This document shows positions 8,855-60,893 of a stretch of 64,000 nucleotides of DNA, piece by piece; the stretch's first letter is position 1; each line of letters opens with the position of its first letter. A program made the translations under genes and the position numbers. Under the pieces are notes generated by a model. That model did not search any database. It was not told where the DNA came from and worked only from the letters and a program-made list of their open reading frames with translations. This DNA comes from a virus. The stretch spans positions 62,001 through 126,000 of the IMG/VR virus record IMGVR_UViG_3300036770_005754. The stretch is one strand, 5' to 3'.

Positions 8855-10480
8855 TCAGAGGTTGCTTACGGTGATAACGCCGTAGTAGAGGCCGCCATCC
8901 TCGATCAGCTTCTTTCCATATCGTGTCATGATCCCTTTGTTCGGTGTGAAGCTGTTAGGATCGAGGACAGTTGGAGTGCTCAACAGAGGAATATATGGAG
9001 CGTAGAAATAACCAGCGTCTAACACTGAGTTACCCTTGAAGCCCATCAGGATCTTACAATTCGGGAAAAGAGGGTCTTTGTAGATCTTCATTTTACCCTG
9101 GATTGTTCCGATGTTCATGATACCAATATCGACACCTTCTGTCGTAAAGGCGTCGCTCGCTCTGAAATCGTTCAACTGTTCGAACTTGGAGCAGATGTCA
9201 GCAGACATAACCATCCAGTTAGCAGGGCCACGGAGAGTGGTTCTGTGGATGATGTTTGCCACTTCGAGGACCTTGTACATCAGAGCGATGTTTCGATCAG
9301 TGAAGTTCACCGATGCCCCAGCGGCAGTGGCGAAGTTGTGATTAGCACGAATAGCTGAAGCTATGATGAGGTCGTTGATGATTTCACGGTCGATTTCAGC
9401 AACCATCTCATCGGCCATCAGGTCAGTGAGGGTTGATTCTGCATCGATATTGTGAACCGACTTGAGGTCTTGTGCTGCTTCGAGCGACCAAGAAGTTTTC
9501 AATTTTCTGGTTATCGCAGCAACAGAGTCGCTATCGATACTCAGAGTAACCTCCGGTTGGAACGGATTGGACTCAAGGTCGTACTCATAGTTGATTCTAG
9601 CGACTGCTCCGACAGGGAATGATCCCGCAGAAAGAGTCACTTGCACCTGACCAGTACTATGATCAAACGATGTAGCGCCAGTGGTTGAGGTGTCGACGGC
9701 TAGAGCTGAAGTGAAACTGGTACAGTCGCCTATCAAGATTGCGTCTGCTGAGCCATCACTATCAAAGCTCACTTTCAGGCAGGGTGTTGCGTTTTCGCAA
9801 TTCGGGCTTGCATCAGCTTCGGTTTCGAAAACTTCGACGACGACTGTACCAGCAAGTACCGGGCGGTGTGCTAAGGTCGCTGATACAACTGTGTTGCCCG
9901 TGATCGTTGCGTCTTCGCCACGGACTTCCTGCGAAGAGTAGTACGGGTCGAGAGCCCAACCGTTTTGCCTTGCAAACGACTGTGCAGTATTTTGTCGCAT
10001 GATTTGTGTACCAGCGACAGTTTGACCTTTCGTAAGTGCGTATCTGTATCGAATGTAGAAAATCAAACTCGCTGGCTGGCTCATCGGCTGAACACCAACG
10101 AGATTATCAGCAATCAGCTTCGGGTACGATTTTCTGATCAGCGGCAACGCAAACCGGGTAAAGTCTGCGATGTTCGCCGTGGTCGTCTGATCTTCGAAGA
10201 TCATAGACCGGTTTGCTGGATTCCAAGCCTTGAACTGATTTTCAAGGATAGATGCCATGAGGCCGAATTTTTTGCTGCCTACTTCTCGGCATTTGCTCAA
10301 TACCGGCGACCACTTCTGCACTAGTTGATTTTTCTTCGCTTCGTGGATAATCGAAGCACGATGAAGATCTGTTTCTTCACCGATCATGCGTCTACTTGTG
10401 CTTTCAGTGAGATGCCGCTGTTGTCTGCGAGCCGGTGCAGACATTGTCTTGCTTCTTCTAGTCGGTAACATATTCTTCAA
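8855..10480 (-). CDS. Major capsid protein, gp23-like
   Basis: The protein has 541 residues, close to T4 gp23 (521). Hallmarks are NIADFTRFALPLIRKSYPKL followed by IADNLVGVQPMSQP (about residues 93-130) and SLIFYIRYRY. The conserved C-terminal shell segment includes FPNCKILMGFKG and YAPYIPLL. Residues about 190-300 form a Thr/Val/Ser-rich beta insertion corresponding to the surface insertion domain of gp23. The N-terminus is basic and contains (L/I)xE motifs (HLTE at 23-26, MIGE, IIHE) of the kind cut by gp21-type proteases, so a propeptide is probably removed. Gene order protease, scaffold, capsid supports the call. Confidence 0.95.
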   Translation of the reverse strand: MKNMLPTRRSKTMSAPARRQQRHLTESTSRRMIGEETDLHRASIIHEAKKNQLVQKWSPVLSKCREVGSKKFGLMASILENQFKAWNPANRSMIFEDQTTTANIADFTRFALPLIRKSYPKLIADNLVGVQPMSQPASLIFYIRYRYALTKGQTVAGTQIMRQNTAQSFARQNGWALDPYYSSQEVRGEDATITGNTVVSATLAHRPVLAGTVVVEVFETEADASPNCENATPCLKVSFDSDGSADAILIGDCTSFTSALAVDTSTTGATSFDHSTGQVQVTLSAGSFPVGAVARINYEYDLESNPFQPEVTLSIDSDSVAAITRKLKTSWSLEAAQDLKSVHNIDAESTLTDLMADEMVAEIDREIINDLIIASAIRANHNFATAAGASVNFTDRNIALMYKVLEVANIIHRTTLRGPANWMVMSADICSKFEQLNDFRASDAFTTEGVDIGIMNIGTIQGKMKIYKDPLFPNCKILMGFKGNSVLDAGYFYAPYIPLLSTPTVLDPNSFTPNKGIMTRYGKKLIEDGGLYYGVITVSNL

Positions 10481-11254: not shown

Positions 11255-11974
11255 CTATTTCAAACCGAAAAATTTGTTTATTTCGTTAACCAACCTGTTT
11301 TGATATACCTCAGGAGAAAACTTAGCACGTGCTTGCTTGATTGGACGCAGTCGGTTGTTAAGACTTTCTTGGATATTGAGTATCGCACCATTTACAGATG
11401 GCTCAGCGACTGCATCCCAAGTGACGAAAGCATAACCAGGCATCACTCTGTATAATTCTTTACCAGAATTTTCGACCATCTCCATGTCGCCGACGCCACG
11501 AGATGAAATACCGACTCGAACTTTATGTTCGAACAGGCCCCTGAGACATGCCCCGCAAGGTAAATTATGCAGTATCTCGGCTTCACCATATACTTTTCGA
11601 CCATCCATCCACACCTTAGTCATAAGATGACTAACGCGGTCCAAATGGATTTTAGCGTCTGGAGGGTGATCATACTCACCCATGACAGCTCTCGCTTTAA
11701 TATCCTCTTGAATGTTATTGACGGCAGGTCTCAAAACCTCGCTGGTCGAATAAAATCTACCATTCGCGTTCTCCCTGTCGCCCATTTGTATCAACCCAGA
11801 GACACGCATAGCAGGCAATTCTTTACCATCTCTGCCCTCAAGAACGACATTTTGTTTATCGATGATATCAAACGAAAATGTGTCCTGAATCAGTCTCATG
11901 CCTGGTGGTATGAGACCTGTTTCAGCAATTACACCTCTGTTCAACTGCATTCGATTATTGCGAGTCGGCATCAT
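11255..11974 (-). CDS. Prohead maturation protease, gp21-like
   Basis: The protein has 239 residues. Phage prohead proteases of the gp21 clan are serine proteases with a herpesvirus-protease fold. The catalytic His lies in GEYDHPPD (His103) and the Ser in VGISSRGVG (Ser157 or Ser158), in the correct order and spacing. RENANGRFYSTSEVL and the downstream AVAEPSVNGAIL are further family features. It would cut the scaffold, core and capsid propeptides after (L/I)xE. The helical C-terminal tail may direct its incorporation into the core. Confidence 0.9.
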   Translation of the reverse strand: MMPTRNNRMQLNRGVIAETGLIPPGMRLIQDTFSFDIIDKQNVVLEGRDGKELPAMRVSGLIQMGDRENANGRFYSTSEVLRPAVNNIQEDIKARAVMGEYDHPPDAKIHLDRVSHLMTKVWMDGRKVYGEAEILHNLPCGACLRGLFEHKVRVGISSRGVGDMEMVENSGKELYRVMPGYAFVTWDAVAEPSVNGAILNIQESLNNRLRPIKQARAKFSPEVYQNRLVNEINKFFGLK

Positions 11975-11984
11975 ATTTCGATTC

Positions 11985-14900
11985 CTAACGATGATTCATG
12001 GTTCTTGATGTCGGAGGATTGGTACCAGAACCATCATCATCCTTTACATCTGGCCCGATGCTATCCAATTTATCATCAGATGCTTTCGGCAATCTTGTTT
12101 TAGGCATTTCTCGGAGATTATCCTTAACATGCTTCGAATATTTTGAGTTCCTGGGCTCTGTTATATCCCTGTCTTCGAACATCTCCTCATCATCTTCGAG
12201 ATCGTCTAAACCGCCCATGTCCTCATCATCCATGTCCTCATCATCCATGTCCTCATCATCCATGTCCTCATCATCCATGTCCTCATCATCCATGTCCTCA
12301 TCATCCATGTCCTCATCATCCATGTCCTCATCATCCATGTCCTCATCGCCAATATCATTGTCTGATTCGAAATCAGGCATTTCGTCTTCAGACCCAACGT
12401 TGCTCATGCTGCTTGTTTCAACACTATCAACAGGGCTCATGGATTCGGCATCACTGTCTTCGTCAACTTCGTCGATTTCGTCAATTTCGTCGACTTCGAC
12501 ATCACCACTGACTTCAACTGATATTCCACCATCATCTGTCGTGGTTATTGTGGCGACCGCTTCATCAAGAAGATTATCTTCGTCGTCGCTAATCAATCTG
12601 AGCTGCTCAATAGACTCAGACAACCATCTCTTGAATTCTGCTTCATCCCCTTTAGACATGCCAACTGATGCATAAGCACTCTCATGTATATCTTTAGGGA
12701 TCGGAATCTCGACAGAGCCATCTTCACTCAAAACCACCGGCGGCATACCAGAATCACCACCATGGTCGAGAATGAATTTAACGCCTTTTAAGCTACCCAT
12801 GACGGCGTCATCTTGACGCTGGTGCCATTGAATTGATTCATTCTTTGTCTCTCTTGGTGCATGGCTATTTCTCTTCAGACCACGCCCACGAATTCTTGGG
12901 CCTTTGAATTGATCTTCTACGAAATCTTCGTCATCTTCGTCCATATCTCTCCAAGATGTGTCAAAACTCTTCGGTAACTTATCGGAAGAATTGCGTTTGG
13001 CCCACGGTTGGAAACTAGCATCTCTCTTCTTTTTATGAGTCTGATACTTATTCCTTCTATCAAGATACTTAGCCTTACCTTGTTTAATCAGACCACGATC
13101 ACTCTTAGTCTCAGAAATAAATGATTCGACACATTCTTCAATCGCATTATTAATTCTGCCATCATGAATTCTAAGGCCAACAGCTTTAATAGCGGCTTTA
13201 GCCATGTCCACTAGATTCTCATTTAAACGCTCACCTTTCAAGTTGTGCTCGAGAGCCAAACGTTTCATTATCGTTACGACCTTCTGAACAGTACCCTTAT
13301 CAGATATCGCTGGTGCCCCATAATCTGATATTAAAGCACTATTTCCGGCATTTACCAATGGTGCATAGGCATATGGGTCATGGCTCTCGTCAATCCCATA
13401 GTCGTCGTCATCATCCCCAAACCCATCGTCATCATCGTCATCACGCATTTCATAATGGACAGGACGAGACTCACTTAGAGGTCTACGACGTCTTAGGCTC
13501 TCCATGCGTGGTTGACCACCAAGGGGAGCCTGACCGCCAGCGGGTGCCTGACCGCCAGCGGGTGCCTGACCGCCAGCAGCAGGTGGAGCTTGAGCAGTTC
13601 CAGCACCACCAGTTGGCGGTGTACCCTGAGAGTCTTCATCACCGAGTAGATCTGACAATGCACCTTCTTCATCACCAAGACCAAGATCATCGAGTTCATC
13701 ATCCTCGCCGGAAGCAGAACTCTTACCACCTATTTGAATCAGGGGACTATTTATATTGATGACAGGCTGACCACCGCCGCCATTACCTTTCGACGATACT
13801 CCGCTGTCTGCCATCTTACTATCACCGGGCATAGTGTCGAAGTTGCTAAGCGTATCTGTCGCAGCAAGTTCTTCCTGAATAGTGGCAATCAAATCTTCTG
13901 CTTCGTAGATTGCAGCATCATCGAAGTCTTTAGTCTGAAGTCGAGCTATTAAATTGTCTAATTTGCTAGACAGATCATGAGACTCTCTGATCTTTGGCGT
14001 TCGGTTCCTAAGATCGCCGAGCGCTGTTGCCAACGTTGAAGCAGCCACCTGCTTATTACTGAACGCTTCGAATATAAGCTCTAAGAATCTATCGTAAGCT
14101 TCTTCGAAGTTTTTAGAACTCTCCAATATCTGGACATTCTCGTTCAAAGTAAACTGTTCTGATTTCCTAGCGATATTACGCCATTCGCTCACGATCTTAC
14201 CACGATTTACTTTGATATTCGTTCTGTGGAACAAAGTAGCAACATCTTTAATCAATTGATCATTGAAGATCGCTGAAGCAGCTAAAGAATTTTCGATCAG
14301 CGTTTTAACCTGCTTTCTGGAAAGAAGAGTGAATTCTTCATTCTCATCTAGAAATCCAGAAACCAATCTCACAGCTTCGCTAATCTTACCTTCAGAGACC
14401 AACCCAGCGAGACCGTTGATTCTGCGCTGGAAGCCCTCTGACCAATAAGCATTGGCAGCGACGTCACGCATGCGTCGAGCAACGAGCTTTCTGGAGGCCC
14501 ATTTTGTAACTGGTAGTCTTACATTGTAGCCATCAGTAAATGTGCCGGAGACCACTTCGCCATTCTCTACTATAACCCTATCTCTTAGGCCTTCAACAAT
14601 TGTAGTAACAAGTCTGGATTTTATACTCTCATCAATCGATGCACCATTAGAAATAGCGATATGACGAGTAACATTATCGCGACCACGAATAACACCAGAA
14701 TGCGGTACGACCCTACCAGAAAATCTTTGTGCTTGCATTCTCTTAAAAGCACCATTCATGTCACGCTGATTGTTCTCTTCTATGGCGTTCACCAATCTAA
14801 GGCAAGAATCGCTGAATAAACCATGCTTTTCTTCCTCGACTATTTGAACTTGTCTGATATTGGAAACGTTAATTTTGCCACCCTTATCGCGGGAGTGTTC

Positions 14901-15095
14901 GGCGATATAATATTCATTCCTATCAACATCTTCAAAATAAAGATTCTTAGGATGAAGAGCGACCAATTTATAATTCTTATTAGCATGTCTACCCATGCTA
15001 GCTATACGTTCTTCGAAAAACGCTACCTGAGCCTGCGAAGAATCATTAATAGCATTTAAAAACTTGCGGCTGTCAATTTTTACAGCAGTTGGCAT
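11985..15095 (-). CDS. Giant acidic prohead core or internal head protein
   Basis: The product is 1036 residues and has no recognised catalytic motif. The N-terminal 400 residues are mostly helical and Arg/Glu-rich. A low-complexity linker follows with GGQAPAGGQAPAGG repeats, then very acidic patches (MRDDDDDDGFGDDDDDYGID). A basic segment GLIKQGKAKYLDRRNKYQTH, an 8.5-fold DMDDE tandem repeat (about residues 916-960) and an acidic tail come last. Location between portal and prohead protease and the charge pattern suggest a core or internal protein, analogous in position to T4 gp67/gp68 but far larger. LSES-type sites (PLSESRP) could be protease cut sites. The function is inferred from context only. 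Confidence 0.6.
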   Translation of the reverse strand: MPTAVKIDSRKFLNAINDSSQAQVAFFEERIASMGRHANKNYKLVALHPKNLYFEDVDRNEYYIAEHSRDKGGKINVSNIRQVQIVEEEKHGLFSDSCLRLVNAIEENNQRDMNGAFKRMQAQRFSGRVVPHSGVIRGRDNVTRHIAISNGASIDESIKSRLVTTIVEGLRDRVIVENGEVVSGTFTDGYNVRLPVTKWASRKLVARRMRDVAANAYWSEGFQRRINGLAGLVSEGKISEAVRLVSGFLDENEEFTLLSRKQVKTLIENSLAASAIFNDQLIKDVATLFHRTNIKVNRGKIVSEWRNIARKSEQFTLNENVQILESSKNFEEAYDRFLELIFEAFSNKQVAASTLATALGDLRNRTPKIRESHDLSSKLDNLIARLQTKDFDDAAIYEAEDLIATIQEELAATDTLSNFDTMPGDSKMADSGVSSKGNGGGGQPVININSPLIQIGGKSSASGEDDELDDLGLGDEEGALSDLLGDEDSQGTPPTGGAGTAQAPPAAGGQAPAGGQAPAGGQAPLGGQPRMESLRRRRPLSESRPVHYEMRDDDDDDGFGDDDDDYGIDESHDPYAYAPLVNAGNSALISDYGAPAISDKGTVQKVVTIMKRLALEHNLKGERLNENLVDMAKAAIKAVGLRIHDGRINNAIEECVESFISETKSDRGLIKQGKAKYLDRRNKYQTHKKKRDASFQPWAKRNSSDKLPKSFDTSWRDMDEDDEDFVEDQFKGPRIRGRGLKRNSHAPRETKNESIQWHQRQDDAVMGSLKGVKFILDHGGDSGMPPVVLSEDGSVEIPIPKDIHESAYASVGMSKGDEAEFKRWLSESIEQLRLISDDEDNLLDEAVATITTTDDGGISVEVSGDVEVDEIDEIDEVDEDSDAESMSPVDSVETSSMSNVGSEDEMPDFESDNDIGDEDMDDEDMDDEDMDDEDMDDEDMDDEDMDDEDMDDEDMDDEDMGGLDDLEDDEEMFEDRDITEPRNSKYSKHVKDNLREMPKTRLPKASDDKLDSIGPDVKDDDGSGTNPPTSRTMNHR
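12216..12350. repeat. 15-bp tandem repeat, 8 perfect copies plus one variant
   Basis: Eight exact copies of catgtcctcatcatc run from 12216 to 12335, with a ninth ending cgcc. They encode DDEDM units in the giant core protein. Perfect identity at the DNA level, including third positions, points to recent slippage expansion. They are contiguous with no spacers, so this is not a CRISPR array. Confidence 0.95.
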
Positions 15096-21561: not shown

Positions 21562-23095
21562 CTTTAATACTCCGACCTGGGAACACTACGGTTGTGTCAC
21601 ATCCCGCATTGACTATCAGTTTTAGTCTAGCGCGTGAGTGTTCGTAGAGATACTTGTTGCAATAGAAATAGAAATCAAAGATTCGGCTACTCCCTCGTTT
21701 ATTATGCCTGACAGCACGCCCGACCTTTTGTATAAGATCTGACCTTAGCTTACCGCCGGTCGCAATAATGAGATTTTCGCACCCTCCACTGAGATCCAAT
21801 CCTCTATTTATTATCTTACCACCGATAAGTACATCGAACTCACGTCTTTCAAATTCACGTAATTTCTCGTTACGGCGGCGTTTGTCAGTCTTGCCACAAA
21901 TGAAATGGGCAGTCAAGCCACATTCTCTAATGGCATTTTCAAGGTTATCACCTAACCTCTCCCTATCGACAAGCACCAAAGTACCATCTCCCTTAAATTT
22001 TTTACAGATATTGGCTACTAAAGAATGAAACTCATTACTATCAACAATCCATTCATTGTATGCTATGTCGTATGCCGATCTGTCATCCTTACGACCATTC
22101 AAACCGAAAGCTAACATATGATAATGAACAGGTATGATTCGACCGATTCTCTGCAACTCCTGCCGAGTTTCTCTAGCTATAACAGATCCAAGGTGCTCCT
22201 GCATCACCAGCCCTTCTACGGGTTTAGCAGGATCAAACGGAGTGCCAGAAAGGCCATATCTTCGCCTACCATTGAACCAATACTTGAACATATTCTTGAA
22301 AGGATCAGAAGTAGCTTTGTCACATTCATCAACTATAATCATCTCAGCGTCTTTAACGTATTCTTGCAACCTTTTAGAATTAGTTCGTCTAGTCTTATAG
22401 CCCCCGACTGCAAGCAACCATTTATCCAACTTAGCATGATACTTCTCATCAGAATCACTTTTATCCCTACTTGGTTTCTCAGGAGGCTTTGATGGGCATG
22501 TCAAAGACTGAATGGTACCAACAACTATTTGTTCGCCATTTGGTTTTTGCCCGGCATAAAACACACCTACTTCATCTATTACATCTCTAAGCTCCAACCT
22601 AGACTTTAACTGCTCAACAACGATCCTCTGATCAGCAACTATAACCGTCGGACAACTGATAGCTTTACATATACCAGCAATTATCTCACCTTTACCGCCA
22701 CCGGTTGGAACATCTACTATACCACATTCTATCCTACATGCAGCCTGAATACTACGAATCTGATGAGGATCAAGAGTGATGCCTGGCAAGAAATCCGATC
22801 CAACTTTATCGGGATCAACGACTATATGAGACCACTCTTTCCTATTGTCAACAATAGACAGAGGCAGATTATGCTTACTACACACTTTCCGCAGCATACC
22901 AAGTAGCGGTCTCGCTATTCTCTTCTTCGCACGATTATACTTTCTAAACACTCCGTCCCATTGGATACTTTGATCTGGGTCAACATATCTTCTACCAGGA
23001 ATAGATACACTAAACTCCGTCCACAATATCTGCTCTTCCGCTTCAGTTATATTATCGAACCATATCCACTTATTGTCTTCAAGTATCGCACGCAT
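21497..23095 (-). CDS. UvsW-like superfamily 2 DNA helicase
   Basis: The product is 532 residues. SF2 motifs appear in order: LDPHQIRSIQAAC (Q-like/Ia), Walker A PTGGGKGE (130-137), VADQRIVVEQ, Walker B VDECDK (255-260, a DECD rather than DEAH box), GLSGTPFD (281-288), LVLVDRERLG and the motif VI arginines QKVGRAVRHNK. T4 UvsW unwinds branched DNA and R-loops and helps the switch to recombination-driven replication; that role is inferred here. The start has GGAG seven bases upstream. Confidence 0.9.
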   Translation of the reverse strand: MRAILEDNKWIWFDNITEAEEQILWTEFSVSIPGRRYVDPDQSIQWDGVFRKYNRAKKRIARPLLGMLRKVCSKHNLPLSIVDNRKEWSHIVVDPDKVGSDFLPGITLDPHQIRSIQAACRIECGIVDVPTGGGKGEIIAGICKAISCPTVIVADQRIVVEQLKSRLELRDVIDEVGVFYAGQKPNGEQIVVGTIQSLTCPSKPPEKPSRDKSDSDEKYHAKLDKWLLAVGGYKTRRTNSKRLQEYVKDAEMIIVDECDKATSDPFKNMFKYWFNGRRRYGLSGTPFDPAKPVEGLVMQEHLGSVIARETRQELQRIGRIIPVHYHMLAFGLNGRKDDRSAYDIAYNEWIVDSNEFHSLVANICKKFKGDGTLVLVDRERLGDNLENAIRECGLTAHFICGKTDKRRRNEKLREFERREFDVLIGGKIINRGLDLSGGCENLIIATGGKLRSDLIQKVGRAVRHNKRGSSRIFDFYFYCNKYLYEHSRARLKLIVNAGCDTTVVFPGRSIKGEELIRRNFRVSKDWLKRSSD

Positions 23096-23126
23096 TACCT
23101 AACTCCGAAAATATTTTCTTATATAG

Positions 23127-23153
23127 TTGAAGCCGGGGATTCCCCGGCTTCAA
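23127..23153 (-). terminator. 12-bp hairpin after the ribonucleotide reductase gene
   Basis: A perfect 12-bp stem (23127-23138 with 23142-23153) with a 3-base loop lies 20 bases past the reductase stop. There is no T run on the minus strand; the following bases are CTATATAAG. It may be a terminator, an RNA-stabilising hairpin, or a hairpin paired with a promoter. Confidence 0.65.
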
Positions 23154-23172
23154 TCTCAAATACCAATACTCA

Positions 23173-25362
23173 TCAAACTATTACACACTTATCAGAATCA
23201 CAGAATTTCGAACCTTCTGCATCATGGCCTATGAAATTCGTATAATCTGCGTCCGTAATTTTTCTATTATACTCTGTGACTTCTGAAGCATCACAAGCTT
23301 CATATGGTGCCTGAGCATAACCATGATCATATAACGGCAAGAAACTTATTCCTTTCAATTGGTCCTCAAATGTCTCAAGGACCCTGAAAATCTGATCGGT
23401 GTCCTCTGGTTTGAATTTAACAGTACACGACACCTGGTTATCGGCCCAGTATCTCTGATAATCAACGACATTTGCGACCTGTTCCCAAACTGAAACCTGG
23501 GAAACTGGTCTGACTCGCTCATCGCTGATGCCGAACCGCACGACTAACGTCCTATCTGCATCCTTTACATCCGGTTCAATATGAAACCCAGCGTCAGACA
23601 AGATCTGAACCAACGGACTATCCTTGGCCAGCCTAACCCTTCTCCAATAAGTACTTGCCTCTGGATAATGGATACCTGGGGTAGCACCGGCGACTAATGA
23701 TACAGTACCGCTCGGCTTCACAGAAGTGACCTTTATAGAATTCTGGACGCATAACCATTCTGAGTAAATGTTATCCCATCTTTTTATCTCATTGTACCCT
23801 GCATCACAAAAGTCTTTAAGCATGGACCTCCTACCGAACTTCACAAATGCTTGTACTATACCGCTTTGTGAAAGACCTATCCTCCTATTCCTAAGAGTAA
23901 CTTGATTAGTCCTCGGATTATGCGTAGGTAAAAGAGTGACAGTCTTCGCATAGAGATATGCGAACTTCAAAGTTCGCATATAATCGTCAGCATCTACATG
24001 ATTAGCAGGAAAAGACTCAACGAGATTGCATAGCTCGTATGACTCTAAGGACTGTTCCAAGCACGGATTTCCGCCCTTGACCCTGCCATCTATGCCTGGC
24101 TGTCTGCCGTCCACCAGTCTACCATAATCACGCATATTATCGAGCCACATCAAACCAGGTTCGCCATTTGAAGCGATTTGTTGCCCGACATATCTGTAGT
24201 CCATCCCGACATAAGCGAAGATTGAATTATTCGACGCCCACCTATGATGGTTCAGAGCATTCCATGTTTTGATAGCTGGTGCCAATCTCTCTTCGGGAAT
24301 TAACAGAGAACCGTCACTATCTGTAAAGTCTTCGATAGAAACCTCACTAGAGCCCCTGGCATATATCTTGCCTGTGACTTCATAGAACGCCTTGTGATCT
24401 GAATCCATTAATGTTGCCAGCGGATTCTTCATTGAACAATATGATTCATCGTGAGGTTCGCCAAAAGCAATCTCAGCGGTCCTCCTGACATTACCAGCAA
24501 CCACGCATCTTCCGATATAATTCATCAAATCTGTAATGTCGACACTTGATAAGGTCTCGCCTATCTTTCTCTCAAAATGATCTCTTATTAGAGAATGTAG
24601 ATCTCTTAGTATCGCAGGACCAGATGCCTTACCACCAAAGCCTTTGATATCTGAACCTGCTTGACGTATGCTGTCATAATTAAATCTAACACGACCCATG
24701 CCTGGGGTTTTAGTATATGACCAAATCAACAGCCTTACAGAATTCACCCACCCCTCTCTTGAATCTTCTACAACGTGATCATAAACATTGTCCTCCGGCA
24801 TGTAGACAGAAATCTTTCCAGCACCTTTAGTGTCAAAGCCAACGCCGACTCCGAGCATTGACATATCCATCAGGAAACAGAATGGCTCTGCTGGATCCGA
24901 CTCAATACGATCATCAGTAGAAACAAACGCACAATTATTTAAAGCAGCGCTCCCTCTTTCCCACATGAAGTCTGTGCCCATCATCCACAAACCACGGCCA
25001 GGAGGTAGGAATTTAAAATCCCACATCCTGCTGAACATTTCTTGTGCTGATCTCTGAGCTTTATTATAATCCCACGGAACATGGATCTTACGGCAATGTC
25101 GGCGCTGAATCTCGTAACAGCCTTCTACGACCCGTCTGATAGTATCGAGAAAACTCTCCTTTGTACCGTCATCCTTTACCCTAGAGTAGGTGCGATAGAA
25201 AACGAATTCTCCGAGACCGTTGAACCCAAAGTCTGGCCGTTTTTTGCTGTATGAAGCCAAAAAATTGGCGTCCAGTCTGAAATTATGCTCTCCACTGTCA
25301 TATTTGATGTTTCCAAAATATTGTTCAGAAATATTTCCCACGTCTTCTATCACTGTCGACAT
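23173..25362 (-). CDS. nrdJ: Adenosylcobalamin-dependent ribonucleoside-triphosphate reductase (class II)
   Basis: The protein is 729 residues from ATG 25362, which has GGAG just upstream; a TTG 12 bases earlier is rejected. It resembles the monomeric class II RTPR of Lactobacillus leichmannii, which makes dNTPs with a cobalamin-generated thiyl radical. Active-site residues are in place: Cys144 (ALNNCAF), radical Cys434 with Glu436 (GNPCLEQ) and Cys445 exactly 11 residues later, as in C408/E410/C419. The C-terminal CDSDKC (721-726) keeps the CxxxxC redox pair of C731/C736. VKPSGTVSLVAGATPGIHYP is the conserved loop. The phage also encodes the adenosyltransferase that would make its cofactor. 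Confidence 0.95.
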   Translation of the reverse strand: MSTVIEDVGNISEQYFGNIKYDSGEHNFRLDANFLASYSKKRPDFGFNGLGEFVFYRTYSRVKDDGTKESFLDTIRRVVEGCYEIQRRHCRKIHVPWDYNKAQRSAQEMFSRMWDFKFLPPGRGLWMMGTDFMWERGSAALNNCAFVSTDDRIESDPAEPFCFLMDMSMLGVGVGFDTKGAGKISVYMPEDNVYDHVVEDSREGWVNSVRLLIWSYTKTPGMGRVRFNYDSIRQAGSDIKGFGGKASGPAILRDLHSLIRDHFERKIGETLSSVDITDLMNYIGRCVVAGNVRRTAEIAFGEPHDESYCSMKNPLATLMDSDHKAFYEVTGKIYARGSSEVSIEDFTDSDGSLLIPEERLAPAIKTWNALNHHRWASNNSIFAYVGMDYRYVGQQIASNGEPGLMWLDNMRDYGRLVDGRQPGIDGRVKGGNPCLEQSLESYELCNLVESFPANHVDADDYMRTLKFAYLYAKTVTLLPTHNPRTNQVTLRNRRIGLSQSGIVQAFVKFGRRSMLKDFCDAGYNEIKRWDNIYSEWLCVQNSIKVTSVKPSGTVSLVAGATPGIHYPEASTYWRRVRLAKDSPLVQILSDAGFHIEPDVKDADRTLVVRFGISDERVRPVSQVSVWEQVANVVDYQRYWADNQVSCTVKFKPEDTDQIFRVLETFEDQLKGISFLPLYDHGYAQAPYEACDASEVTEYNRKITDADYTNFIGHDAEGSKFCDSDKCVIV

Positions 25363-25364
25363 AA

Positions 25365-26012
25365 CTATCTCCAATCTTCACCAAGAATCGATTTAACACC
25401 AGAAACATCCAAATGGTCTTTCAAGAATTCAGACCTTAACATGTACAAAACTGTAGTTTTAGGCAGCATCTCTCTTTCTTCCGGATTATTCCTACTCAGG
25501 CGAGCCAAAGCCACACCACAAGATTTTGATAATGCTAAATACAGCCTCGGAATACGTGACGACTGAAACCATTTAGTCAAATTACAAAACTCATCAGGAT
25601 CAGACCGACGGAGCAGAGTCCTAACTATATCTCCGTTCGATTTCCCTTCCAACCACGCATGTGCTGTTGATATCAATGCAATACTATCAGATCTTTCTTC
25701 AGAATTCTTTGATAGCTCATCATAGCACAATCGCATAATGTTGGATTGGTGTAAAGAAGCCAGACCTTTATGTAATATACCAGCCCTTTTGCAATGTTTC
25801 ACAGCAGTTCTGATGAATTGTTTAGAGGTCTGCTCATCGAACCCCCACTCAGAGAATTTGGACGCTATGGAACTTAAATACCGCCATTGATAAGTCTTAG
25901 TGCGATCTGTATTGGCAGGAAACGCTAAATTGTAACCAAGTTGTAAATAGATTTCATGACACCATCCCCAAACAGCCATTATCGAATCTTCTGATGTTTC
26001 TAACGTATTCAT
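25365..26012 (-). CDS. Hypothetical helical protein upstream of nrdJ
   Basis: The product has 215 residues from MNTLETSED; the longer reading would run across the start of the divergent plus-strand gene. It is rich in helices with paired Trp/Tyr residues (WGWCHEIYLQLGYNLAFP, TYQWRYLSSIASKFSEWGF) and ends GVKSILGEDWR. The family is not recognised. Its stop is two bases from the reductase start, so it is cotranscribed with nrdJ. Confidence 0.6.
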   Translation of the reverse strand: MNTLETSEDSIMAVWGWCHEIYLQLGYNLAFPANTDRTKTYQWRYLSSIASKFSEWGFDEQTSKQFIRTAVKHCKRAGILHKGLASLHQSNIMRLCYDELSKNSEERSDSIALISTAHAWLEGKSNGDIVRTLLRRSDPDEFCNLTKWFQSSRIPRLYLALSKSCGVALARLSRNNPEEREMLPKTTVLYMLRSEFLKDHLDVSGVKSILGEDWR

Positions 26013-41122: not shown

Positions 41123-42208
41123 CTAATATATATGCGGACGAATGAATAATCTTGTATATTTACCTACTAAGTCACTTTTCATTATGTTTTGTTCTGCTTC
41201 TGGCCACCTTCGTTCTAGAATATATATAGCATAGCGCACAGCAGACCAAGGGTCCTTCATTATTGTTGGCTCTGCCTCTGGCCATCTACGTTTAAGAACA
41301 TAAATAGCGTAATCAAGGGCCAAAGCAGGGTTTTTCATTATTGTTGGTTCTGCTTCTGGCCATTCACGTTTAAGAACATGAATAGCATACCAGGCAGCGA
41401 CATTAGGGTGCTTCATTATTGTTGGTTCTGCTTCAGGCCATTCACGTCCGAGAACAGAACGGGCATAATTATAAGCAACCCAAGGGTGCTTTATAGCAGC
41501 ATTCTTATAAATCTCACTATACTTATCCTTCATGAATAGACCAATATCAGGGACATAATCTGATAGTAAATGGTAAACCTCCTCAGAAATCCTAAAAGAC
41601 TTATTCCTAAAATCCATTAGCTGGTCAGACTCAACATGACACAAGTACTTCTCCCCATTAAGTAGGATGAAGTGCAAATCATCCTTACCAAGGTAATAAT
41701 CTGCTTTCTCGACATTGACTGTACACCATTCTGATTTGTGGCTCATGTCACTGGCTATTTTAGCCGCTTTCCCAGTATCATCGATTCTCTTGACTTTTAT
41801 TATTCTTAGTCCATTGTTATTGACTAGTATTTCTGAGTATGGTGGTTCTTCGATGCTCCAGTTCCTGCGGGATTCTTGGAGTTTGCGATTGCTGGGTTTT
41901 GATGCCCTTAGCTCTTCAAATTCTATGAGGGCACTGTGTATTATCCTGGAGGTGTAGTTGAATATGTTCTTATAGTTGGGGTTGTGTCTAGCTAGGATAC
42001 TACTGTATCTGTTGTCTCTTATGTTATTATTGTAGATTTCTATTGAGTCTAGGATGTTGTTGATGTTTTCTCCGTTGTGGTATTCTTTGATTCCCCATTC
42101 TTGTTCGTGTGGTTTTAGTGGTTTTAGTCTGTTGGCTATTTCTGGGGGTATGTTGGTGTAGTCGATTTCTTCGGTGAGGGTTTTGGTTAGTATTTGGCAG
42201 AGCTTCAT
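41123..42208 (-). CDS. WCT-domain/WPEAEP-repeat protein, copy A (4 repeats)
   Basis: The product is 361 residues. It starts MKLCQILTKTLTEEIDYTNI like its two paralogs and is nearly identical to them over about 235 residues. The N-domain contains SDMSHKSEWCTVNVEKADYY followed by YLGKDDLHFILLNGEKYLCH, the WCT...LYFILxxGEKY pattern seen in several phage repeat proteins. Then come four 26-residue repeats of the form WPEAEPxIMKxPxxAxxYAxxVLKRR, predicted as helical pairs forming a solenoid. The C-terminus diverges (YTRLFIRPHIY). The function is unknown. Solenoids usually bind protein partners. Its ATG overlaps the stop of a remnant of copy B (ATGA). Confidence 0.8.
   Translation of the reverse strand: MKLCQILTKTLTEEIDYTNIPPEIANRLKPLKPHEQEWGIKEYHNGENINNILDSIEIYNNNIRDNRYSSILARHNPNYKNIFNYTSRIIHSALIEFEELRASKPSNRKLQESRRNWSIEEPPYSEILVNNNGLRIIKVKRIDDTGKAAKIASDMSHKSEWCTVNVEKADYYLGKDDLHFILLNGEKYLCHVESDQLMDFRNKSFRISEEVYHLLSDYVPDIGLFMKDKYSEIYKNAAIKHPWVAYNYARSVLGREWPEAEPTIMKHPNVAAWYAIHVLKREWPEAEPTIMKNPALALDYAIYVLKRRWPEAEPTIMKDPWSAVRYAIYILERRWPEAEQNIMKSDLVGKYTRLFIRPHIY
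41180..41470. repeat. WPEAEP repeat array of copy A
   Basis: Four 78-bp units, each containing a ttctgc(t/c)tc.ggcca core that encodes WPEAEP on the minus strand. Unit boundaries are approximate. Confidence 0.85.
41500..42208. repeat. Triplicated ~700-bp segment, copy 1
   Basis: The N-terminal domain DNA of copy A is nearly identical to 42830-43541 and 44140-44848, including long exact runs and the shared start region. This is a recent tandem triplication. Confidence 0.9.
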
Positions 42209-42437
42209 ATGTTGAAGTGTTTCTTGTACGTGTTTGCGGCGTTATAGTCTCTCATTATGTTGGTTCTGCTTCCAGTTCTATCTTTGTTCAGTGACTTAGT
42301 CAGCATACCTTTACTTTCTATCTGTTGGGAGATCCAGTAGTTGATACGCCAGAGCATCTAACATATCAACTACCGGATAAGCCTTGGTCAGAGCGGTGGA
42401 ACACCAGCACTCACGTGCTCTGGCTGACAAAGAATAT
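42205..42437 (-). pseudogene. Remnant of the copy B C-terminus
   Basis: A 50-codon frame (42205-42357) ends in NIMRDYNAANTYKKHFNI, almost the C-terminus of copy C (NIMKDPNAAITYKKHFNI). Its TGA overlaps the ATG of copy A exactly as copy C overlaps copy B (ATGA). Just after the stop of copy B another frame reads YAIDIL, like the repeat motif YAIHVL. Copy B therefore seems to have lost its end through a deletion and frameshift, with debris left here. An imperfect stem (arms 42337-42346 and 42364-42373) lies inside. Confidence 0.7.
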
Positions 42438-43541
42438 CTATGGCGTATTTGCTTCAGGCCGCCTACGTTTAAGGACATGCATAGTATAATAGATAGCGGC
42501 CCCAGCGTTCTTCATTATGATTGGTTCTGCCTCGGGCCATCTACGTTTAAGAACGTGATGAGCATAATGGACAGCGGCCCGGACGTCCTTCATTATGATT
42601 GGCTCTGCCTCGGGCCATTCACGTTCTAGAACGTGCTGAGCATAATAAACAGCGACCCGGACGTCCTTCATTATGTTTGGTTCTGCCTCGGGCCATCTAC
42701 GTTTAAGAACGTACTGAGCATAATAGACAGCAGCCCAAGGGTGCTTCATTATGATTGGCTCTGCTTCAGGCCATTCACGTTTAAGAACAGAATGGGCATA
42801 ATTATAAGCAACCCAAGGATGCTTTATAGCAGCATTCTTATAAATCTCACTATACTTATCCTTCATGAATAAACCAATATCAGGGACATAATCTGATAGT
42901 AAATGGTAAACCTCCTCAGAAATCCTAAAAGACTCATTCCAGAAATCCATTAGTTGGTCAGACTCAGCATGACATAAATACTTCTCACCATTAAGTAGGA
43001 TGAAGTACAAATCATCCTTGCCAAGGTAATAATCTGCTTTCTCGACATTGACTGTACACCATTCGGTTTTGTGGCTCATGTCACTGGCTATTTTAGCAGC
43101 TTTACCAGTATCATCGATTCTCTTGACTTTTATTATTCTTAGTCTATTGTTATTGACTAGTATTTCTGAGTATGGTGGTTCCTCGATACTCCAGTTCCTG
43201 CGGGATTCTTGGAGTTTGCGATTGCTGGGCTTTGGGGCTTTTAGTTCTTCAAATTCTATGAGGGCGCTGTGTATTATTCTGGAGGTGTAGTTGAATATGT
43301 TTTTATAGTTGGGGTTGTGTCTGACTAGGATTTTGCTGTATCTGTTGTCTCTGATGTTATCATTGTATATTTGTATTGAGTCTAGGATGTTGTTGATGTT
43401 TTCTCCGTTGTGGTATTCTTTGATTCCCCATTCTTGTTCGTGTTGTTTGAGTGGTTTTAGTCTTTCTACTATTTCTGGGGGTATATTGGTGTAGTCGATT
43501 TCTTCGGTGAGGGTTTTGGTTAGTATTTGGCACAGTTTCAT
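42438..43541 (-). CDS. WCT-domain/WPEAEP-repeat protein, copy B (truncated)
   Basis: The product has 367 residues, paralogous to copies A and C. The N-domain has MSHKTEWCTVNVEKADYYLG and the linker SEIYKNAAIKHPWVAYNYAH. Four full WPEAEP repeats follow, then a fifth that breaks off as VLKRRRPEANTP and stops. The missing end is found downstream as a remnant. The start codon overlaps the stop of copy C (ATGA). The truncated protein may still be functional because repeat number differs among all three copies. Confidence 0.8.
   Translation of the reverse strand: MKLCQILTKTLTEEIDYTNIPPEIVERLKPLKQHEQEWGIKEYHNGENINNILDSIQIYNDNIRDNRYSKILVRHNPNYKNIFNYTSRIIHSALIEFEELKAPKPSNRKLQESRRNWSIEEPPYSEILVNNNRLRIIKVKRIDDTGKAAKIASDMSHKTEWCTVNVEKADYYLGKDDLYFILLNGEKYLCHAESDQLMDFWNESFRISEEVYHLLSDYVPDIGLFMKDKYSEIYKNAAIKHPWVAYNYAHSVLKREWPEAEPIIMKHPWAAVYYAQYVLKRRWPEAEPNIMKDVRVAVYYAQHVLEREWPEAEPIIMKDVRAAVHYAHHVLKRRWPEAEPIIMKNAGAAIYYTMHVLKRRRPEANTP
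42460..42800. repeat. WPEAEP repeat array of copy B
   Basis: Four complete 78-bp units and a broken fifth at the low-coordinate end. Individual units share long exact runs with units in copies A and C. Boundaries are approximate. Confidence 0.85.
42830..43541. repeat. Triplicated ~700-bp segment, copy 2
   Basis: N-terminal domain DNA of copy B; near-identical to 41500-42208 and 44140-44848. Confidence 0.9.
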
Positions 43542-44848
43542 ATGTTGAAGTGTTTCTTGTACGTGATTGCGGCGTTAGGGTCTTTCATTATGTTTGGTTC
43601 TGCTTCTGGCCATCTACGTTTAAGAACATGTATAGCGTAATCAAGGGCCCCTCCAGGGTTTTTTATTATGTTTGACTCTGCTTCTGGCCATCTACGTTTA
43701 AGAACATAAATAGCATAATTGGCAGCAACTGGAGGGTCCTTCATTATGATTGGCTCTGCTTCTGGCCACCCACGTTCTAGAACATGAACAGCGTAATAAT
43801 AGGCCGCCCCAGGGTCCTTCATTATGTATGGTTCTGCTTCTGGCCATTCACGTTTAAGAACATGATGGGCATAATGGACAGCGACATTGTGATCCTTCAT
43901 TATAATTGGCTCTGCTTCAGGCCATTCACGTCCTAGAATGCTATAAGCATAATCGCAAGCAGCCCCAGCGTCCTTCATTATGATTGGCTCGGCTTCTGGC
44001 CATTCACGTTCAAGAACATGAATAGCATAGATACTAGCGGCATTAGGTTCCTTAATTATTGTCGGTTCTGCTTCTGGCCATCTACGTTTAAGAACGTCAG
44101 CAGCATAATTGGCAGCGTCGATAGGATATTTAATCACAGTATTCTTATATATCTCGCTGCGATTATCCTCCATGAAGAAACCAACATCAGGAACATAATC
44201 TGATAGTAGATGGTAAACCTCCTCAGAAATCCTAAAAGACTCATTCCAGAAATCCATTAGCTGGCCAGACAAAACATGACATAAATATTTCTCACCATCA
44301 AGCAGAATGAAGTACAGGTCATCCTTGCCAAGGTAGAAATTTGCTTTTTCGACATTGACTGTGCACCATTCTGACTTGTTGCTCATATCGCTGGCTATTT
44401 TAGCAGCTTTGCCAGTATCGTCGACTCTCTGTACTTTTATTATTCTTAACCTATCATTGTTGACTAGGATTTCTGAGTATGGTGGTTCTTCGATGCTCCA
44501 GTTCCTGCGGGATTCTTGGAGTTTGCGATTGCTGGGTTTTGGGGCCCTTAGCTCTTCAAATTCTGTGAGGGCACTGTGTATTATTCTGGAGGTGTAGTTG
44601 AATATGTTTTTATAGTTGGGGTTGTGTCTAGCTAGGATTTTGCTGTATCTATTGTCTCTGATATTATCATTATATATGGCGATTGAGTCTAGGATGTTGT
44701 TGATTGTTTCTCCGTTGTGGTATTCTTTGATCCCCCATTCTTGTTCGTGTGGTTTGAGTGGTTTTAGTCTGTCTGCTATTTCGGGGGGTATGTTGGTGTA
44801 GTCAATTCCTTCGGTGAGGGTTCTGGTTAGTATTTGGCAGAGTTTCAT
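43538..44848 (-). CDS. WCT-domain/WPEAEP-repeat protein, copy C (7 repeats)
   Basis: The product is 436 residues from MKLCQILTRTLTEG, aligned with the starts of copies A and B. The longer reading to 44944 adds 32 residues that are antisense to the coiled-coil gene and is rejected. It has the same N-domain (MSNKSEWCTVNVEKANFYLG) and seven WPEAEP units, the most of the three. One unit is varied to WPEAESNIIKNP. It ends in YKKHFNI, probably the ancestral C-terminus. It is the first of the triplet and follows the PAS/coiled-coil pair, with 14 bases between genes. Confidence 0.82.
   Translation of the reverse strand: MKLCQILTRTLTEGIDYTNIPPEIADRLKPLKPHEQEWGIKEYHNGETINNILDSIAIYNDNIRDNRYSKILARHNPNYKNIFNYTSRIIHSALTEFEELRAPKPSNRKLQESRRNWSIEEPPYSEILVNNDRLRIIKVQRVDDTGKAAKIASDMSNKSEWCTVNVEKANFYLGKDDLYFILLDGEKYLCHVLSGQLMDFWNESFRISEEVYHLLSDYVPDVGFFMEDNRSEIYKNTVIKYPIDAANYAADVLKRRWPEAEPTIIKEPNAASIYAIHVLEREWPEAEPIIMKDAGAACDYAYSILGREWPEAEPIIMKDHNVAVHYAHHVLKREWPEAEPYIMKDPGAAYYYAVHVLERGWPEAEPIIMKDPPVAANYAIYVLKRRWPEAESNIIKNPGGALDYAIHVLKRRWPEAEPNIMKDPNAAITYKKHFNI
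43590..44110. repeat. WPEAEP repeat array of copy C
   Basis: Seven 78-bp units, each encoding a 26-residue helical repeat. It is the longest of the three arrays. Boundaries are approximate. Confidence 0.88.
44140..44848. repeat. Triplicated ~700-bp segment, copy 3
   Basis: N-terminal domain DNA of copy C; near-identical to 41500-42208 and 42830-43541, slightly more diverged than those two are from each other. Confidence 0.88.
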
Positions 44849-44862
44849 ATGTTTAAGGACTT

Positions 44863-45234
44863 CTATCTGAGAGAGACGGCCAAGCTTATAATAGAGACGA
44901 TTAACGACCCAATTATTGATATGACCGCACTCCAGAACCCCCATTTACTGGAGATAGTTGAATCGTGTTCTTGTTCTCTTCTATATGCTGCGAATTCAGC
45001 ATCTAGTGAATTGATATCTCTGATTATATTATTAAATTGTTCGTTATTTGGGTGGTATCTTAGTCTATCGTTGATCGTATCTCTTGTATTGCTTATTTCA
45101 TCTTGTATGTATGATTGTATTTCTACACATCTGTCTTTCAACCTCTCGACAGCCATATTTAGACGCTCGAGTTCAGACAGTACTAGTCTTCTGTACTCGG
45201 CCCAATCATCAGTAGTTTCGTCTTTTCGGGTCAT
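44863..45234 (-). CDS. Coiled-coil protein with C-terminal membrane anchor
   Basis: The product has 123 residues. Residues 10-95 form a charged coiled coil (LVLSELERLNMAVERLKDRC, ...EFAAYRREQEHDS). A single transmembrane helix closes it: WGFWSAVISIIGSLIVSIIS, then LAVSLR. The topology is tail-anchored, with the coil in the cytoplasm. The gene overlaps the end of the PAS gene by 26 bases, which argues for joint expression. The family is not recognised; a small lysis or membrane-scaffold role is possible. Confidence 0.65.
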   Translation of the reverse strand: MTRKDETTDDWAEYRRLVLSELERLNMAVERLKDRCVEIQSYIQDEISNTRDTINDRLRYHPNNEQFNNIIRDINSLDAEFAAYRREQEHDSTISSKWGFWSAVISIIGSLIVSIISLAVSLR

Positions 45235-45703
45235 GTCTGTTCCCGCTTCTATACACCGAACTGAACCTGCTTTCAGCGTCTTTACACTTTGAACAGCTCA
45301 ATGGTACCTGTCTTCCGATGGCATATGTTAATCCGTTTCTCCAAGATGTCGCGTTCCACTCTAACACTATAAAATCGTCTTCTCCAATGTTTGATTTAAT
45401 GCGATATCTATTGTGAAAACGCACGATATCATGTTCTGACATGTATTCGAGAATGTCTCTTGTCTTTTCAACGTCGTCCGGATGAACAAAGTCTATGAAT
45501 GGTACGGATAGGAGTTCATCTTCCGACCATCCGAGAATTTTCTCCCATGATTTGTTGATCTTTTTAAGATAGCCGAGCCTATCTGCCACACAGCATAGAT
45601 CAGGTGCAAAGTCGAAAAATTCGTCCTTTGTATTGTCCAATTCTACCGTCAAACGTCTTATTCTGTCCATCTGAGTTGGCGGAAATTCGATCGATTTCAT
45701 CAT
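45209..45703 (-). CDS. Stand-alone PAS domain protein
   Basis: The product is 164 residues. Residues about 28-135 form one PAS fold: FFDFAPDLCCVADRLGYLKK, INKSWEKILGWSEDELLSVP followed by FIDFVHPDDVEKT, then FHNRYRIKSN and WNATSWRNGLTYAIGRQV. The order FxxxPDLxxxxDxxGxxxxxN and the GWSEDELLG-like helix are typical of PAS sensor domains in histidine kinases and diguanylate cyclases. No output domain is attached. The C-terminus has CSKC and a basic tail. The sensed ligand is unknown; it may act through the coiled-coil protein encoded next. Confidence 0.85.
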   Translation of the reverse strand: MMKSIEFPPTQMDRIRRLTVELDNTKDEFFDFAPDLCCVADRLGYLKKINKSWEKILGWSEDELLSVPFIDFVHPDDVEKTRDILEYMSEHDIVRFHNRYRIKSNIGEDDFIVLEWNATSWRNGLTYAIGRQVPLSCSKCKDAESRFSSVYRSGNRHDPKRRNY

Positions 45704-60173: not shown

Positions 60174-60893
60174 TTATACCGGTTCTGTCGGCTGTTCAAC
60201 TGGTACTATTGGTTCTACTGGCGGTTCTGGCGGTTCTGGCGGCTGTTCAACTGGTGCTATTGGTTCTACTGGCGGTCCTGTCGGCTCTGTCGGCTCTGTC
60301 GGCTCTGTCGGCTGTTCAACTGGTGCTATTGGTTCTACTGGCGGTCCTGTCGGCTCTGTCGGCGGTTCAACTGGTGCTATTGATTCGACTGGCTGCTCTG
60401 TCGGCGATTCAACTGGTACCACTGGCTCTGCTGGCAGCTCTGTCGGTTCTGTCGGCGGTTCACCTGGCTCTCCTGACTCTCCTGGCTCCATTGGCTCTAT
60501 TGGCGGTTCAATTGGTTCTGTTGGATATCTATCTCCAGTTAAAACAATTGACCCACCAACTAACTCATATGGTACTGGGGATGAGACTTCTTCAGCTTTT
60601 ATGATTCCAACAGAAGCTAAAAAGGTTCCCAAAGACCCATGATATTTAAATAATTCAACGTCTCCGCCAAGATGGACAATGCCGTCATAAATGCCTGGTG
60701 GTGCTAAGAGCCTTAGTTCATTCAATATTTTTTGGGCGTCTTCGACTTTATATCCGGGAACGTTCCACATCATTTCCCGGCCCATGTCATATAGTCGTTT
60801 GATTTCTTCTGAAACTTGATTTGCGAACAATAGCATTGCTCTTGCTCGTTCGCGATGTTCATTCTTTTGTTCTTCTACTTGAAATAGTGACAT
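60174..60893 (-). CDS. Protein with long Pro/Glu/Val/Thr repeat tail
   Basis: The product has 239 residues from MSLFQVEEQ, with GGAG six bases upstream. The N-terminal 115 residues are helical then globular (ARAMLLFANQVSEEIKRLYD, LLAPPGIYDGIVHLGGDVEL). From about residue 125 the chain is almost only Pro, Glu, Thr and Val, with repeats such as PTGPPVEPIAPVEQPTEPTE. Such tails are extended and stiff and often project from surfaces. Its place among fibre genes suggests a spacer or a decoration arm. The family of the N-terminal part is not recognised. Confidence 0.6.
   Translation of the reverse strand: MSLFQVEEQKNEHRERARAMLLFANQVSEEIKRLYDMGREMMWNVPGYKVEDAQKILNELRLLAPPGIYDGIVHLGGDVELFKYHGSLGTFLASVGIIKAEEVSSPVPYELVGGSIVLTGDRYPTEPIEPPIEPMEPGESGEPGEPPTEPTELPAEPVVPVESPTEQPVESIAPVEPPTEPTGPPVEPIAPVEQPTEPTEPTEPTGPPVEPIAPVEQPPEPPEPPVEPIVPVEQPTEPV
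60180..60530. repeat. Low-complexity tandem repeat encoding the Pro/Glu tail
   Basis: Repeats built on ggctctgtc and ggttctactggcggtcctgt, with one block of about 60 bases present twice nearly exactly (near 60240-60300 and 60310-60360). Likely prone to slippage and length variation. Confidence 0.8.

Follow-up and report, generated by a model that had tools for sequence, protein, structure and literature searches.

Multicopy genes with a constant WCT domain and variable WPEAEP solenoids in a large T4-like phage, and their possible packaging in the head

Results

Three tandem genes with a common N-domain and a repeat array

The DNA analyzed here (the window) is a stretch of 64,000 nucleotides from the virus record IMGVR_UViG_3300036770_005754. 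Between 41123 and 44848, its minus strand carries three complete tandem genes, transcribed in the order W3, W2, W1. Each starts with MKLCQILT[RK]TLTE, followed by an N-domain of ~230 residues, an N-cap half-unit (SEIYKN...), and 26-residue (78-bp) units of the type RWPEAEPIIMKDPxxAxxYAxxVLKR. The features of this cluster, all on the minus strand, are as follows.

43538..44848, minus strand: W3, 436 aa, with N-domain, seven WPEAEP units, and intact C-cap (open reading frame, units, AlphaFold2 model of pLDDT 89); length counted from the ATG common to the other copies, the mechanical open reading frame extending to 44944
44810..44848, minus strand: capsid-targeting-like propeptide of W3, MKLCQILTRTLTE, with a predicted cut after Glu13; the same in W1 and W2
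44153..44497, minus strand: WCT domain of W3, residues 118–232 (alignment with 35 other sequences; model pLDDT 93)
43538..44158, minus strand: alpha-solenoid of W3, comprising N-cap half-unit, 78-bp units, and C-cap (TRF, units, model)
43538..43541, minus strand: ATGA stop/start overlap between W3 and W2
42438..43541, minus strand: W2, 367 aa, truncated at the tail, with N-domain, four units, and a broken anchor in fifth place
42273..42449, minus strand: insert of ~177 bp in the W2 tail, boundaries approximate, with a 22-bp hairpin at 42332–42378
42209..42272, minus strand: out-of-frame remnant of the old W2 C-cap, up to and including the ATATGA junction with W1
41123..42208, minus strand: W1, 361 aa, with N-domain and four units, the last one degenerate

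The first-pass annotation had described three tandem genes with four, five, and seven repeats of 26 residues, and both the open reading frames and the anchor counts agree with that description. When all WPEAEP-type anchors are counted, W3 has seven, W2 five, and W1 four, the last anchors being degenerate in W1 (WPEAEQ) and W2 (RRPEAN); the 78-bp arrays were also detected by TRF. Structure prediction, proposed for all three proteins, was obtained for W3, whose model (pLDDT 89) has two-helix repeats stacked as a solenoid. The tail of W2 is broken, and its former C-terminus (NIMRDYNAANTYKKHFNI and stop) persists out of frame immediately before W1. The insert found in this tail folds unusually well (z −3.8), is unlike any other sequence of the record, and matches no Rfam family at gathering score; it is possibly a small mobile element. 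Just upstream of the W array lies a gene for a PAS-domain protein (45209–45703, minus strand; PF08447, E 1.2e-8), which is odd within a structural gene block.

Seven old copies under purifying selection

A search of the 176,558-bp virus record with W3 revealed four further copies outside the window, for a total of seven in three clusters. The phage that carries them is large and T4-like. The two additional clusters, in the coordinates of that search, are given below.

22877–25482, plus strand: X1/X2
43439–41128, minus strand: Y2/Y1

Within clusters, head-to-tail copies are linked by the same ...ATATGA... junction, in which stop and start overlap by four bases, and N-domains are most alike between tandem neighbours, W1 with W2 and Y1 with Y2. 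Across the seven copies, N-domains show a DNA identity of 82–93% and a dS of 0.23–0.88, with dN/dS at 0.08–0.17 (about 0.12). The duplication is old and has been maintained, and the N-domain is under purifying selection. Even in the window trio, N-domain DNA identity is 89.5–93.2% and dS 0.25–0.44, so that the recent triplication proposed earlier is overstated; the N-domains are near-identical, as had been reported, in protein but not in DNA.

These values also bear on whether the copies are an assembly artefact, an error that the first-pass annotation had allowed for. Short-read assembly struggles with repeats, but copies that are only 82–93% identical, with dS up to 0.88, and that occupy three genomic contexts, each flanked by unique sequence, make this explanation extremely improbable, as does the same organisation in independent contigs; misassembly could still affect the unit number of single copies.

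Solenoid units vary along one predicted helix face

When W1 and W2 were compared per 25 codons, identity was 0.88–0.97 along the N-domain and dropped to 0.64–0.72 in the units, and other paralog pairs show a like drop at the N-domain/solenoid boundary. Unit similarity was 0.70 for the same index across paralogs, 0.71 for different indices, and 0.71 within one gene. Because same-index units are no more alike than others, the solenoid arrays are not co-linear between paralogs. The earlier statement that the arrays vary among copies is borne out by this lack of positional homology and by the differing unit numbers.

Variation within the unit is unevenly distributed. W2, E6, and I9 are invariant, and E4, A16, and Y19 almost invariant, whereas entropy is above 3 bits at positions 14, 17, 18, and 21. 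Positions 13–24 form the second helix (helix B) of the unit in the AlphaFold2 model, and judging from helix periodicity the variable positions would lie together on one of its faces. The comparison of solenoid residues between units, which had been suggested as a check, accordingly finds variation concentrated on what is probably one face of the second helix. An independent array of related genes (contig L036, described below) has a variability profile that correlates with that of the window family (rho 0.68, p 1.5e-4). At variable positions picked from the L036 array, pN/pS in the window family is 0.76–0.82, compared with 0.28 for the framework; values above 1 arise only when the variable positions are picked from the same data. 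Since independently picked positions give pN/pS below 1, no claim of positive selection is made for the variable face. The proposal of a constant domain joined to diversifying solenoids is supported by the fixed framework, by variable positions that appear to share one helix face, by the drop in identity at the domain boundary, and by the lack of co-linearity; the binding of host partners that was proposed with it would be a further step.

The predicted two-helix units, stacked as a solenoid, are like the DUF4116, TPR, and HEAT alpha-solenoids, and the window repeat presumably resembles DUF4116. The Pfam models for DUF4116, TPR, and HEAT gave no match in the window proteins; a marginal TPR_7 match was seen once, in a relative. 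No fold match was found in the PDB at E ≤ 0.001. Pfam matches to DUF982, HTH_35, FF, and others were rejected as short periodic-sequence matches.

The WCT domain accompanies two types of solenoid

The conserved half of the N-domain reads GTKWCTA...Y...GPLYI...KYQFH..S.QFMD..D in relatives. This WCT domain is widespread in large phages, and W-C-T is invariant in 36 aligned sequences, which were collected with a pattern itself containing WCT. No Pfam family matches the domain; its relatives match only PHROGs of unknown function (phrog_28193 / phrog_17056), and for the window proteins themselves any PHROG match lies below the detection level. Profile searches gave no PDB relative, and comparison of the WCT fold with the PDB gave no match at E ≤ 0.001, weak GNAT and proteasome-like fold matches being judged chance. 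The best predicted-structure match of W3 was to its homologue in phage PA5oct, described below (E 1.7e-7). The W3 model (43538–44848) also matches BFVD entries A0A481Z016 and A0A481YW50 from Marseillevirus-like metagenomic giant viruses (E 1e-5 to 1e-4), which may point to a relative in eukaryotic viruses or to a binning error.

Searching with the WCT pattern alone gave 42 loci, and in about half of them repeat genes adjoin the WCT gene or are fused to it. Some of these repeats are alpha-solenoids, and others are of leucine-rich type, in tandem with constant N-caps (L077, L094). The occurrence of one WCT module with solenoids of two unrelated types suggests a platform role for WCT, with the repeats as exchangeable parts for recognition. 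Loci at which leucine-rich-type tandem arrays with constant N-caps adjoin WCT genes are L077 (6191–7653), L094, L069, and L093.

Parallel arrays and unit turnover in other phages

A repeat-only scan returned 49 viral loci. Such repeat-only alignment was required, as full-length protein scans of viral_contigs and INPHARED gave no relatives; the viral scans exclude records very close to the window's own record, and the contigs compared are metagenomic. In genome_contigs, 169 pattern matches included no relative, so a cellular origin was dropped.

The largest array, on contig 3300035181_001867 (L036), comprises 27 tandem genes between 359 and 18651, counted as matches starting at residue 1. Its genes have a common start (MKLRDLFEAMDLYKYHSNPEKLHGYDKKH), a variable body, and a common end, and 13 of the 14 junctions in the stretch read have 4-nt overlaps. 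Units at least 96% identical are found in different genes and at different positions, which is evidence for unit exchange. One gene of this array (L036:7235–7928) is frameshifted and keeps its tail in another frame, much like W2. On contig 3300045016_000121 (L066), seven WCT-solenoid copies form two opposed clusters, with N-domains far from those of the window family and an in-frame TAG in one copy; a further contig, L101, has three copies.

Near-identical contigs (98.5–99.9%) differ by one 78-bp unit in two cases, L028/L029 and L101/L102. L028 and L029 are 99.9% identical in their left part, the difference being exactly one 78-bp unit, whereas the additional unit of L101/L102 is not an exact copy of a neighbour, a difference that simple assembly collapse would not readily explain. 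The phages that carry these parallel arrays are unrelated, and the arrays were built independently. The first-pass annotation had asked for repeat counts in related phages. Copy numbers are 7 in this phage and 7, 3, and 27 in others, and unit numbers differ by one between near-identical contigs; in place of the single invariant copy that would have spoken against its reading, multicopy arrays were found.

The same data weigh on the view that T4-like recombination on repeats has produced the arrays as a largely neutral by-product. Broken copies such as the W2 tail, the frameshifted L036 gene, and the L066 copy with its TAG codon would fit, but neutrality is very unlikely given an N-domain dN/dS of about 0.12 in all pairs, framework residues that are fixed while variation is confined to one face, and independent expansions in unrelated phages. 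The constant scaffold with variable positions is also like that of diversity-generating retroelement targets. Such an element was rejected, as no reverse transcriptase (PF00078) was detected in the 176.6-kb record, which may be incomplete, although controls were; variation in the window family, unlike that of retroelement targets, goes with unit exchange and copy number.

Indirect evidence for packaging

The window encodes T4-type head functions, among them a major head protein, which indicates a T4-type head, and a protease.

8855..10480, minus strand: T4-type major head protein (phrog_138, E 1e-81)
11255..11974, minus strand: T4 gp21-type prohead protease (Peptidase_S77; PF03420, E 6.3e-18), the predicted processing enzyme

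The phage also encodes a T4-type portal, and a prohead protease of the Peptidase_S77 type is encoded in 15 of 25 records with WCT-family genes, PA5oct and SCTP-2 among them. T4 gp21 cleaves after L/I-x-E, and T4 capsid-targeting sequences are 10–19 residues long (PMC9026906). The 13-residue start MKLCQILTRTLTE, followed by G, fits both this motif and this length, and residues 1–15 of the W3 model have low pLDDT. Cleavage would be expected after Glu13 in W1, W2, and W3. L/I-x-E was found at residues 7–19 in 22 of 32 WCT N-termini and in 86 of 384 other genes (p 1.4e-7), a comparison in which the rows are partly interdependent, alignment guided the choice of some starts, and the result depends on start-codon choice. 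The motif is short, with a background of 22%, and the 10 of 32 WCT proteins that lack it mostly belong to the L066 family or are larger proteins with several domains.

The second line of evidence comes from PA5oct, whose protein EST35_0205 (QCG76086.1) has the same N-domain with a WCT core. It starts with a sequence like a capsid-targeting sequence (MKLFEVFTLYE, followed by D), is annotated "structural protein, ESI-MS/MS", and adjoins a gene reading as the large terminase. Unlike the window family, it shows no WPEAEP solenoid and is single-copy in the stretch examined. Indirectly, these observations support the packaging of the window-family proteins, which are probably present in the virion.

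Gene order points elsewhere, as the W cluster is set among tail and primase genes, away from the head genes. The proteins might instead be intracellular decoys or effectors that are not packaged, with solenoids that sequester variable host or competitor-phage proteins and an N-terminal motif that is incidental. The primase-like neighbour of the W cluster and the dUTPase-like gene (an identity read from sequence) near the X cluster, both outside the head module, would suit such proteins, as would the third or so of WCT proteins without the L/I-x-E motif, and an arms race would explain diversification equally well. The detection of the PA5oct homologue in virions by ESI-MS/MS and the motif enrichment count against it, and we regard it as unlikely. 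Lower still, and quite improbable, stands the proposal that the proteins are tail- or surface-associated in the virion, with solenoids varying for host attachment. Baseplate-hub, tail-tube, and sheath genes do adjoin the W cluster and variable repeats are suitable for adhesion, but the N-termini are of the head-targeting type, the PA5oct homologue adjoins the terminase gene, and the proteins gave no match to a tail or fibre family.

L009:3171–4190 and L065:4105–5292 (both minus strand), two related genes distant from each other in one genome, also have starts like capsid-targeting sequences (MKISNILIEEGFSRSDFF and MRLSSINEAFSRRDFF). They match no Pfam family and are candidates for another packaged paralog pair.

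Discussion

Relation to known packaged proteins

The giant phages SPN3US and phiKZ have multicopy families of head proteins, with 2 to 20 members depending on the phage, and some members of head paralog families A and B are ejected and are cut after Glu by a gp21-like protease (PMC5694885). The window family is likewise multicopy with a number that varies between phages, but Pfam scans gave no match to PF12699 or to another family of this kind, and no variable solenoid appears to be described for the SPN3US/phiKZ paralogs. T4 packages IPI, an anti-restriction protein (PMC9026906). Like T4 IPI-III and Alt, the window proteins have a short N-terminal propeptide ending in L/I-x-E in a phage with a gp21-type protease; they match no PHROG or Pfam family of the T4 IPs or Alt, and whereas the T4 IPs are small, the window family combines a constant module with a repeat array in seven copies. 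In outline, the window family resembles the SPN3US/phiKZ paralogs and the T4 IPs; by sequence, it belongs to neither.

A tentative explanation

The best explanation, which we advance tentatively, is that these are head-internal proteins that are packaged by a propeptide and delivered to the host, where their solenoids bind variable partners. Each of the seven proteins combines a short propeptide-like start and a constant module, helical plus WCT, with an alpha-solenoid that differs from copy to copy in unit number and in exposed residues. The propeptide of capsid-targeting type would bring the proteins into the prohead core, the gp21-type protease of the phage would cleave after L/I-x-E, and the mature proteins would reside in the head and enter the cell together with the DNA. 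The constant WCT module would do an identical job in each copy, and each solenoid would bind a partner of its own, probably a host or defence protein that varies. Tandem duplication with ATGA junctions could create new specificities, as could the gain or loss of whole units, the exchange of units between copies, and substitutions on one face of helix B.

A wider reading, which we consider doubtful, is that large phages have a general system of WCT plus variable solenoid, in which a conserved, packaged module and recombining arrays of up to ~27 genes would supply a repertoire of injected binders against variable host defences. The arrays of such a system would have constant caps and hypervariable bodies of alpha-solenoid or leucine-rich-repeat type, a logic comparable to that of variable lymphocyte receptors.

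If packaging and binding hold, phages would maintain diversified recognition proteins as a gene-family repertoire that enters the cell with the genome. Repertoires are a known strategy of cellular immune systems; for phage heads, no description was found in the literature searched, and nothing on point was found on the repeat motif or on phage solenoid arrays. New here are the design of a constant module with a variable solenoid, the array sizes, the evidence for ongoing unit turnover, and the occurrence of one domain with two solenoid types. Under the same proviso, a widespread uncharacterised phage domain would gain a function class, and anti-defence candidates could be predicted for testing. 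The arrays would also serve as a natural library of 26-residue helical repeats in which framework and variable positions are clearly distinguished.

Tandem repeats were also noted in the window apart from the W cluster. The ORFs between 60151 and 60905 have no Pfam match, overlap on both strands, and contain dense 9-bp and longer tandem repeats at 60180–60487. In the head region, the protein encoded at 11985–15095 (minus strand) includes 8.9 perfect copies of a 15-bp repeat (12215–12347), which give an acidic DEDMD run.
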